Shown: positions 3,571-7,070 of the stretch, piece by piece
How positions within the stretch are numbered: position 1 is the stretch's first letter
How the letters are laid out: each line of letters starts with the position of its first letter
Assembly: GCA_902558705.1 (NCBI GenBank)
Contig: CACEEW010000001.1
Coordinates: 1 to 64,000, forward strand
Length of the DNA: 64,000 nt
Origin: an uncultured Pelagibacteraceae bacterium
GTDB taxonomy: Bacteria; Pseudomonadota; Alphaproteobacteria; Pelagibacterales; Pelagibacteraceae
Reading direction: 5' to 3'
The notes under the pieces: generated by a model
What the model was told of the DNA's origin: nothing
The model's database searches: none
Seen by the model: the letters and a program-made list of their open reading frames with translations, nothing else
Made by a program: the position numbers and the translations under genes

Positions 3571-4632
3571 ATGAAATTTAATAAAAATCTAATCAACATT
3601 AAAAGAGATGGTGACTATAATTTTGATCGCTCTAAATTTTTGAGACTTGACAGAAATGAAAGAGTAATCCCTTATGAAAAAAAAGATTTATTAAAAGTTA
3701 GTAAAATAGTTAATGACTATTTTCTACAAGCTTATCCTTCTTACAAAATAGATCTCTTAAAAAAAATTTATTTAAAAAATAAATTGCACAAAAAAAAAAA
3801 TTATGATGTAACAATTACCCCTGGAGCAGACATAGCAATAAGATATATTTTTGAACTTTTTACTGATTGTAAAAATAAAAAAATATTATCAATTGACCCT
3901 ACTTACGGAATGGTTAATGTTTATGCAGATATCTTTAGATATAAAGTAAAAAAAATTCATGAGAAAAATTTAAAAGAATTTACTAATAAAAAGAATTACA
4001 ATGATATACAGTTTGTATATTTGGCAAATCCAAACAATCCATCTGGTGAAAATATTAAGACAGACATATTACATAAAATTCTTAATATATGCGTAGAAAA
4101 AAAAATTTTGCTTATTTTAGATGAGGTATATATAGATTATTCATCTCAAAAGTCGTTTTTAAAAGAAATTAAAAATAAAATAAATAATATTTTAATTTTA
4201 AGATCTTTTTCAAAATCAATTGGATTAGCAGGTTTAAGAGTAGGATATGTAATAGGATCAAAAAAAAACATTAGAATATTTAATTCAACTAGACCACCTC
4301 ATGATACAAGTTATTTATCAATTAAAATAGCCAATTTTTTATATGATGGAGAAAAAAAATATCTACAACAAATAAAGAAGTCTAGAAAATTTGTCGTTGA
4401 ATTTTGTAAAAAAAATCAATTAAAGTATAAAATGACTAATGCAAATTTTTTTCATTTATATTTTGATAAACAAAAAATAAAAAATATTTTTTTTAAATTA
4501 AAAAAGAATAAAATTTTAGTTAAATCGAATTATTTAGGAAGTTTAGTTAAAACAGACCAAAGCATTAGAATTACACTAGGAAGTAAAGATCAAATGAAAT
4601 TTTTTTTCAAAAATCTAATGAAAGTGCTTTAA
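3571..4632 (+). CDS. PLP-dependent aminotransferase class I/II (histidinol-phosphate aminotransferase-like)
   Basis: 'ITPGADIAIRYIFELF', 'LANPNNPSGENI', 'LILDEVYIDYS', 'LRSFSKSIGLAGLRVGYVIGS' (PLP lysine). Confidence 0.88.
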   Translation: MKFNKNLINIKRDGDYNFDRSKFLRLDRNERVIPYEKKDLLKVSKIVNDYFLQAYPSYKIDLLKKIYLKNKLHKKKNYDVTITPGADIAIRYIFELFTDCKNKKILSIDPTYGMVNVYADIFRYKVKKIHEKNLKEFTNKKNYNDIQFVYLANPNNPSGENIKTDILHKILNICVEKKILLILDEVYIDYSSQKSFLKEIKNKINNILILRSFSKSIGLAGLRVGYVIGSKKNIRIFNSTRPPHDTSYLSIKIANFLYDGEKKYLQQIKKSRKFVVEFCKKNQLKYKMTNANFFHLYFDKQKIKNIFFKLKKNKILVKSNYLGSLVKTDQSIRITLGSKDQMKFFFKNLMKVL

Positions 4633-5724: not shown

Positions 5725-6306
5725 TTAAAACTTTACAAATTCCGTATTTCTTTTAATTATTTTTTTTATTTCATTTCTATTTTTATTTTTCAAATATTTT
5801 TTAAATACCTTTATAAGAATTTCACAGTCTTCTATCGCGTTATGGGCTCTTTTATTTTTTTCATTTTCTTTAAAATAAAATTCAGTGTCAGTATCACCTA
5901 AAATTTTTCTTAGATTAATAAACTTTACATTGATACCAATTTTTTTATTAATAAATTTTTTATAGTTCATCTTCATTATTTTAAGATCATCACCATTACT
6001 TAAAAAAACATTATCTTTTTTTAAAATAGGTATAATTTTTTTTATTCTTTTTGAAAAGATATCACCATTTTTATTTAAAAATTTTTGAGTAATTTTTGTT
6101 AATTTAATCAGTCTTTTTGGAATTTTTTGTTCTGTTTTAAAATAAATATTTGTTTTTATTTTTTTACTTGATTCTGTGCTGAATTGGATACATCCAAGTT
6201 GAAAAATTTCTGGGTATAAGATTTTTTGAAATTTTATTAAATTTTTGTAGCTAGACTTTGCATTTGATAAAGAAAAATATTCTAGATCAATTACAGCAAA
6301 TTTCAT
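5725..6306 (-). CDS. DEDDh-type 3'-5' exonuclease-like protein
   Basis: ExoI-like 'FAVIDLEYF' (DxE) and ExoIII-like 'HNAIEDCEIL' (HxAxxD) motifs. Confidence 0.65.
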   Translation of the reverse strand: MKFAVIDLEYFSLSNAKSSYKNLIKFQKILYPEIFQLGCIQFSTESSKKIKTNIYFKTEQKIPKRLIKLTKITQKFLNKNGDIFSKRIKKIIPILKKDNVFLSNGDDLKIMKMNYKKFINKKIGINVKFINLRKILGDTDTEFYFKENEKNKRAHNAIEDCEILIKVFKKYLKNKNRNEIKKIIKRNTEFVKF

Positions 6307-7070
6307 AATTTCTTTAATTTTCTTAATTTTTGTCTGATTTTTGTTGCGGAAATTTTTTCAATTTTTTTCCCTAAATTTACTTTTTGGATCTTGTATCCAA
6401 CTGTTCTACCATAAATTATATTTGTTATATTTGGTACTTTTGAAATTTTATATCTTGATTTAAAATCTACTAAATCTTGATTGATATTCTTTTTTACTTG
6501 ATTATAAGTGTATGGATTGTCATTTACACCATGGACATCTCTAACTAATACATTTACTTGACCAGTTATCATTATTGATTTTTCAAATAATTTTCTATGC
6601 CCTTCATGCCATGGTTGCCATCTTCCCAACATTTGCACTGTAGGTTTTTTATTGTCCCATCTGTACGGTTTCAACTTATCTATTAATTTGATTAAGTTTA
6701 AGTTTATATTTTTTTCATTAATTCTTAAATGATATTTTTTTGGTGGCCTAAATAATTTATTCATCGATTTAAAACGTCCTTTTTGAATAGTGTCCATCCA
6801 TACAATTATATTTGGTTTAAAAATATCTATTTGTTTTTTTAAAGGACAGACGAAATCTGCAACCACAATTTTTTTTTTTGAGAGTTGAGCCAATTTTTTC
6901 ATTCTTTTTACTTGTCTTATTATGCCCTGTTCACTGAAGTCCCAATCATTATATTTTCCTCTGATTTTATCAGCATTTAACCATTCAGCATTTATAATTT
7001 TTGAAAATCTTTTAGCCAAGTAAGTTTTACCTGAACCCGGAAGACCCATAATTAAAATTTTTTTTTTCAA
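6303..7070 (-). CDS. Fusion of adenylylsulfate kinase-like P-loop kinase and nucleotidyltransferase domain
   Basis: N-terminal Walker A 'GLPGSGKTYLAKRF' and CysC-like 'WLNADKIRGKYNDWDFSEQGIIRQVKRM'. C-terminal 'GRWQPWHEGH' (HxGH) and 'KISATKIRQKL' (ISxTxxR-type). Confidence 0.75.
   Translation of the reverse strand: MKKKILIMGLPGSGKTYLAKRFSKIINAEWLNADKIRGKYNDWDFSEQGIIRQVKRMKKLAQLSKKKIVVADFVCPLKKQIDIFKPNIIVWMDTIQKGRFKSMNKLFRPPKKYHLRINEKNINLNLIKLIDKLKPYRWDNKKPTVQMLGRWQPWHEGHRKLFEKSIMITGQVNVLVRDVHGVNDNPYTYNQVKKNINQDLVDFKSRYKISKVPNITNIIYGRTVGYKIQKVNLGKKIEKISATKIRQKLRKLKKL

Follow-up and report, generated by a model that had tools for sequence, protein, structure and literature searches.

A candidate compact PAPS synthase with a small NMN adenylyltransferase-like domain in SAR11 bacteria and phages

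A 64,000-nucleotide stretch of DNA from an uncultured Pelagibacteraceae bacterium (GCA_902558705.1, contig CACEEW010000001.1, positions 1 to 64,000), here called the window, encodes a member of a two-domain protein family that we name K-N, for its kinase (K) and nucleotidyltransferase (N) domains. The K-N family is probably a compact sulfate-activating enzyme, that is, a PAPS synthase in which N makes APS and K makes PAPS. We infer both chemical steps: in the ATP sulfurylase reaction, N would join the AMP of ATP to sulfate to form APS, with release of pyrophosphate, and K would then add a phosphate at the 3'-OH of APS, producing PAPS, the sulfotransferase donor. This reading is based on the APS-kinase-like K domain, the linkage of K-N to sulfotransferase genes, a fusion in Rhizobium sp. 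BK376, the replacement of Sat at its usual position, the linkage to aprABM and the near-absence of Sat and CysD. We also lean, less firmly, towards regarding N as a third, independently evolved ATP sulfurylase, besides Sat and CysDN, with an NMN adenylyltransferase-like origin, and K-N as the main source of PAPS in SAR11 and many phages. PAPS synthases are known, whereas the papers searched describe no version built on a small NMN adenylyltransferase-like sulfurylase; no paper on an enzyme of the K-N type was found in the open literature, a search outside which most subscription journals fall.

The open reading frame begins with a TTG start codon, contains no internal stops and carries, in this order, the motifs GLPGSGKT, NADKIR, DFSEQG..RQVKRM, GRWQPWHEGH and ISATKIR (Table 1). 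The PHROG profile phrog_10255 matches residues 3-249 of the 255 with E = 1.1e-50; this family match is near full length, but the family is labelled 'kinase' only, a name without tested function. Relatives turned up in 421 viral stretches, the best of them about 58% identical over the full length, and in 72 of the 101 SAR11-order genomes, which together with the PHROG match confirms that the frame is a real gene and not a chance one. Against Pfam, the window protein scores 20.7 bits with APS_kinase (PF01583), 0.4 bits under the cut-off of 21.1, and 21.6 bits when neighbouring matches in the window frame are added; the K domains of its relatives score above the cut-off. CTP_transf_like reaches 17.4 bits against a cut-off of 21, the NCBIfam model for archaeal NMN adenylyltransferase 19.8 against 181.2, and the Pfam search returned no match to PF01747 (Sat) in the window protein.

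Table 1. Position of the K-N gene and its features in the window, numbered from the first letter of the window.
Feature	Positions	Strand	Assignment or basis
K-N gene, 255 aa, APS-kinase-like domain and HxGH nucleotidyltransferase domain	6303..7070	minus	Proposed compact PAPS synthase
K domain, APS-kinase-like P-loop, residues ~1-120	6711..7070	minus	APS kinases best in PDB profile and fold searches
Walker A GLPGSGKT, residues 9-16	7023..7046	minus	G9, L10, P11, G12, G14 and K15 invariant in alignment
R50I, family position conserved in at least 90%	6921..6923	minus	Conservation count
D102S and T103M, kinase lid motif	6762..6767	minus	Consensus GRFEDTN, window GRFKSMN
N domain, minimal HxGH nucleotidyltransferase, residues 139-255	6306..6656	minus	Profile and structure comparison
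HEGH motif, residues 155-158	6597..6608	minus	H155, G157 and H158 invariant
YGRTVGY loop, residues 220-226	6393..6413	minus	Motif census; GRD-loop likeness only
ISATKIR motif, residues 240-246	6333..6353	minus	Sequence

We compared a profile built from 28 K-N relatives with those of the PDB. The best match of the K half is the APS kinase 2yvu (6.5e-12), further matches include the Aquifex SAT/APS kinase (2.4e-10) and human PAPSS1, and the NadR kinase domain stands far down the list. The AlphaFold model of the window protein (pLDDT 87.7) finds as its best fold match 3uie, the structure of an APS kinase from Arabidopsis in complex with AMPPNP and APS. The nearest solved relatives of the N half are NMN adenylyltransferases (2.3e-11), aligned over the first half only, about 70 of the 124 profile positions. 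Further on, the corresponding part of the adenylyltransferases is replaced by a family-specific segment that contains YGR(G/D/K/T)VGY. A motif census revealed YGRGVGY or YGRDVGY in most relatives and YGRTVGY in the window. The GRD loop of ATP sulfurylase contacts APS (PMC3779200), and the YGRDVGY of many K-N members recalls this loop, a resemblance at the level of sequence. Modelled alone (pLDDT 89.1), the N domain matches HxGH nucleotidyltransferases generally, with E values of 0.014 or worse, ATP sulfurylase and SAT/APS kinase being two of the many enzymes matched. Such generic matches do not discriminate between substrates, and this search was rejected as a substrate test. The original prediction, which described a 255-residue frame joining a kinase to an HxGH domain and proposed a fold comparison, is borne out by the motifs, the PDB profiles, the PHROG match and the folds, with an APS kinase best for the whole protein and generic HxGH matches for N alone.

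The K-N family is also present in five named phages, other SAR11 genomes, SAR116, rhizobia and one planctomycete. A survey of neighbouring genes in SAR11 and phages, which the original prediction had proposed, revealed sulfotransferase and aprABM neighbours. In a second phage clade, many K-N loci have a PF13469 sulfotransferase directly upstream or a few genes off. Sulfotransferases confirmed by Pfam adjoin K-N in SAR116 (L184, L185), Bradyrhizobium (L187, L196), the planctomycete (L192), phages (L085, L101) and a SAR11-type genome bin deposited as a euryarchaeote (L170); a further candidate, in L213, gave no Pfam match. These adjacent sulfotransferases belong to several Pfam types. In Rhizobium sp. 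BK376, Sulfotransfer_2, APS_kinase (1.2e-14) and CTP_transf_like domains occupy a single stop-free frame of 555 residues. A sulfotransferase lies at most two genes away from K-N, or is fused to it, in 11 of 47 clusters formed at 90% identity, 8 of 31 at 80% and 5 of 15 at 70%. Using HMMs seeded partly with K-N-adjacent sulfotransferases, we counted sulfotransferases among 11 of 177 genes near K-N and 0 of 431 far from it in the 90% clusters (P about 1e-6), and again none among the far genes at 80% and 70% (P = 2e-5 and 0.002). A whole-genome search with PF13469 is free of that weakness: its 14 matches come from six genomes between 0.9 and 8.8 Mb in size, and 9 of them, by coordinates matched by hand, fall at K-N loci, including three of the five in B. 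macuxiense. PF13469 found no match in the K-N-bearing genomes G106, which has a sulfotransferase of another type, and G114, or in three named phages. Within the stretches read, no sulfotransferase accompanies K-N in the T4-like phage clade or in most SAR11 copies, the window included. The original prediction was correct in seeing none in the window; its genome has two, both on other contigs. SAR11-wide co-occurrence of K-N with sulfotransferases was discarded as uninformative: 77 of the 101 SAR11-order genomes have a sulfotransferase above cut-off, and K-N-free genomes also carry them, some with CysDN.

Gene order in related clusters links N to sulfate activation from another side. One SAR11-order genome (G074) has the order APS_kinase, ATP-sulfurylase (PF01747, 6e-43), pyruvate-kinase-like gene and sulfotransferase, and another (G088) has ATP-sulfurylase followed by the pyruvate-kinase-like gene. 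In G013, APS_kinase (1.5e-30) is followed by a 117-residue N paralog and then the pyruvate-kinase-like gene, so the paralog occupies the position of Sat. This paralog, in locus L136, matches PF01467 at 2e-7 and PF01747 at 0.0034 and shares 44% identity with the N domain of the window protein. In several SAR11-order genomes, pyruvate-kinase-like proteins (PF00224; 323-341 or about 449 residues) are encoded next to a gene for a sulfotransferase, an APS kinase or an ATP sulfurylase; examples are L136, L152, L153, L154 and, in the window's own genome, L161 (contig C22, 1502-2473).

Genes for both known sulfurylases are scarce in the order: Sat occurs in 2 of the 101 genomes and CysD in 6, all six without K-N. 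CysQ-like phosphatases are general, mostly under the CysQ cut-off. The presence of aprBA and cysC in Ca. Pelagibacter, where sat and cysDN are missing, has been noted in the literature, and among seven SAR11 strains surveyed cysC and aprA occur in the same five, cysD in HIMB59 only and cysQ in all (PMC5069961). The cysC of that survey may be K. In a second SAR11 family, K and N adjoin aprABM (aprA identified by TIGR02061, aprB and aprM by reading), and K-N is present in 24 of 24 aprA-positive and 0 of 16 aprA-negative genomes; the genes are linked, so this co-occurrence represents few evolutionary events. AprBA could make APS from sulfite and AMP in SAR11, and N could run backwards, converting APS and pyrophosphate to ATP and sulfate. 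In the first SAR11 family, that of the window, K-N does not correlate with aprA (P = 0.42), and co-occurrence with aprA fails there as a general proof. The separate K and N genes of this family sit among genes for C1 and methylated compounds: Rieske oxygenase, DMGDH-like, MetF-like and GcvT-like neighbours were read by eye at L118, L119, L123, L125 and other loci, and selenium-binding or methanethiol-oxidase-like genes near some. Housekeeping cysteine synthesis was rejected as the role of the window gene on the grounds that CysD and Sat are missing in its family, in line with the original prediction, which held a part in cysteine synthesis to be unlikely.

In SAR11-order genomes K and N are nearly always two separate genes, mostly adjacent; the genome of the window has a fused copy only. 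Among the 80 viral stretches kept, all or nearly all K-N genes are fused. In the phylogenetic tree, separate SAR11 genes are nested inside fused SAR11 copies, and a second group of separate genes, comprising the second SAR11 family and one alphaproteobacterium, is placed elsewhere. These two positions suggest that a fused gene was split twice with adjacency retained. The window copy groups with fused SAR11 copies (support 97/94) on a long branch of 0.7; this grouping led us to reject the idea that the window gene came straight from a phage, with the caveat that long branches may attract. A NADAR-domain gene overlaps K-N in the Casjensviridae phage loci L116 and L117 (7565-8008 in each; PF08719 at 2.6e-26 in L116, annotated in L117). 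The wide family, the separate genes in SAR11, the aprABM adjacency and the sulfotransferase neighbours and fusions had not been foreseen.

The window gene is located in an island of surface-polysaccharide genes (Wzy_C, Glycos_transf_4, Polysacc_synt_2, WecG). The original prediction proposed an unusual phosphate, sulfate or nucleotide donor for surface modification. From these choices the gene context of the family selects sulfate, and we infer the tie to surface polysaccharide from the make-up of this island. The last 4 bases of K-N overlap the start of a DEDDh exonuclease gene (5725-6306; PF00929, 4.6e-12), and no such gene was noticed next to the other fused copies from SAR11 that were compared. 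A class I/II aminotransferase gene near K-N (3571-4632) has a homolog in L170 (4540-5589), where a sulfotransferase adjoins K-N. Elsewhere in the window's genome, locus L002 (contig C9, 81-3185) encodes a fusion of PEP mutase with a cytidylyltransferase domain (TIGR02320 above cut-off) and an adjoining 433-residue cupin/HTH protein, methylphosphonate synthase-like by eye; the locus suggests phosphonate synthesis.

The K half of the window copy deviates at V36I, R50I, R81I, D102S and T103M, where 90% or more of the relatives agree, and four of these changes (R50I, R81I, D102S, T103M) are non-conservative. The arginine that follows FS..(D/G), R50, the counterpart of an APS-contacting arginine in fungal APS kinase, is retained in nearly all relatives but lost here: GI replaces GR or DR in 2 of 115 sequences counted, the window frame and its own re-fetched copy (L005). 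The deviations of the N half are conservative (I174V, F187Y, E229Q). With eight deviations in total, the window copy has the most among SAR11 copies; reduced, changed or absent kinase activity is possible. It is conceivable, if doubtful, that this copy is a paralog in decay, or one that has changed, and that its kinase has ceased to act on APS; this would be compatible with sulfate activation by the family at large. The four non-conservative kinase changes, the number of deviations, the long branch and the TTG start point in this direction; the intact frame, the retained P-loop, D34, R37 and every invariant N-domain residue, and the mildness of the N changes argue against it. Our confidence in a fully active window copy is lower than in the function of the family.

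Several observations count against sulfate activation as the family function. Among solved structures, N is closest to NMN adenylyltransferases, and its fold match is generic for HxGH enzymes; the T4-like phage loci and most SAR11 loci lack a sulfotransferase; the first SAR11 family shows a C1-gene context and no tracking of aprA; some K-N genomes are PF13469-negative; a NADAR gene overlaps K-N in two phages; and four conserved kinase residues are missing from the window copy. The kinship of N is what would be expected of an enzyme of NAD salvage, a NadR-like protein with reversed domain order in which K would be the kinase for nicotinamide riboside and N would adenylate the resulting NMN, and the NADAR gene that overlaps K-N in phages AhaSv and Bhz60 would fit as well. 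K, however, matches APS kinases far better than the NadR kinase domain, and N has only the first half of an NMN adenylyltransferase, with the YGRxVGY segment in place of the rest, and we rejected NAD salvage as first choice on these grounds. It would also leave the sulfotransferase and aprABM linkage without explanation, and a separate nadD is above cut-off in 52 of the 101 SAR11-order genomes and just under it in many more. We consider NAD salvage very unlikely.

It is improbable, too, that the SAR11 pair serves mainly sulfite oxidation, with AprBA supplying APS, N converting APS and pyrophosphate to ATP and sulfate, and K providing PAPS as a side branch. In the second family, the position beside aprABM and the fact that K-N and aprA occur together without exception favour such a role, as do the missing Sat and the sulfite detoxification proposed for AprBA in Ca. 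Pelagibacter (PMC5069961). That co-occurrence nevertheless reflects one linked locus and not independent events, and is absent from the first family, and phages and rhizobia pair K-N with sulfotransferases instead. Sulfurylase chemistry is common to sulfite oxidation and sulfate activation, and only its direction differs. The least probable of these alternatives, in our judgement a slim prospect, is that K-N makes another activated group for surface glycans. APS-kinase-like proteins can take other substrates; in Campylobacter phosphoramidate synthesis, one phosphorylates a CDP derivative. The polysaccharide island of the window and the glycosyltransferase-like neighbours of T4-like phage copies, read by eye, are in keeping with this, but the linkage and fusion to sulfotransferases, the replacement of Sat by an N paralog and the aprABM adjacency speak against it.

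SAR11 is among the most abundant bacterial groups of the ocean, and K-N is a candidate for its missing ATP sulfurylase, a gap described previously (PMC5069961). Sulfate activation by K-N would account for the supply of PAPS to sulfotransferases in cells without sulfate reduction. At present, cysC genes in phages are interpreted as part of assimilatory sulfate reduction (PMC10914622 and PMC8190135 are examples), whereas the K-N phages with an adjacent sulfotransferase point to sulfation. If N is indeed a third sulfurylase and K-N the main PAPS source in SAR11 and many phages, the phage genes reported as cysC for sulfate assimilation would, at least partly, serve sulfation.

K-N combines features of several known systems. 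N belongs to the HxGH superfamily, as Sat does; many N domains have a GRD-like loop, and in related clusters an N paralog occupies the position of Sat, whereas the overall sequence match is not significant (best 0.0034, one paralog) and N has about one third of the length of Sat. The QxRN loop of Sat, for sulfate and phosphate, is absent from N, which has GRWQP there, residues of the NMN adenylyltransferase type. The archaeal NadM-type NMN adenylyltransferases share with N the GRFQPFHxGH-like motif, the NPF segment of the first half and ISxTxIR, but the second half of N cannot be aligned with them and has PNITNIxYGRxVGY in its place. CysC (PF01583) and K have in common the fold, the P-loop and the FS..R and FVCP-type motifs; the lid region of K is shorter and different (GRFEDTNKMF..P), and the window copy is without R50. 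The HxGH motif is essential in PAPSS1 (PMC11697783). Animal PAPSS1 and PAPSS2 resemble K-N in domain order, kinase then HxGH nucleotidyltransferase, and in the proposed overall reaction. The animal PAPS synthases are about 624 residues long, whereas K-N has 255, and its sulfurylase part is a small NMN adenylyltransferase-like domain in place of Sat.
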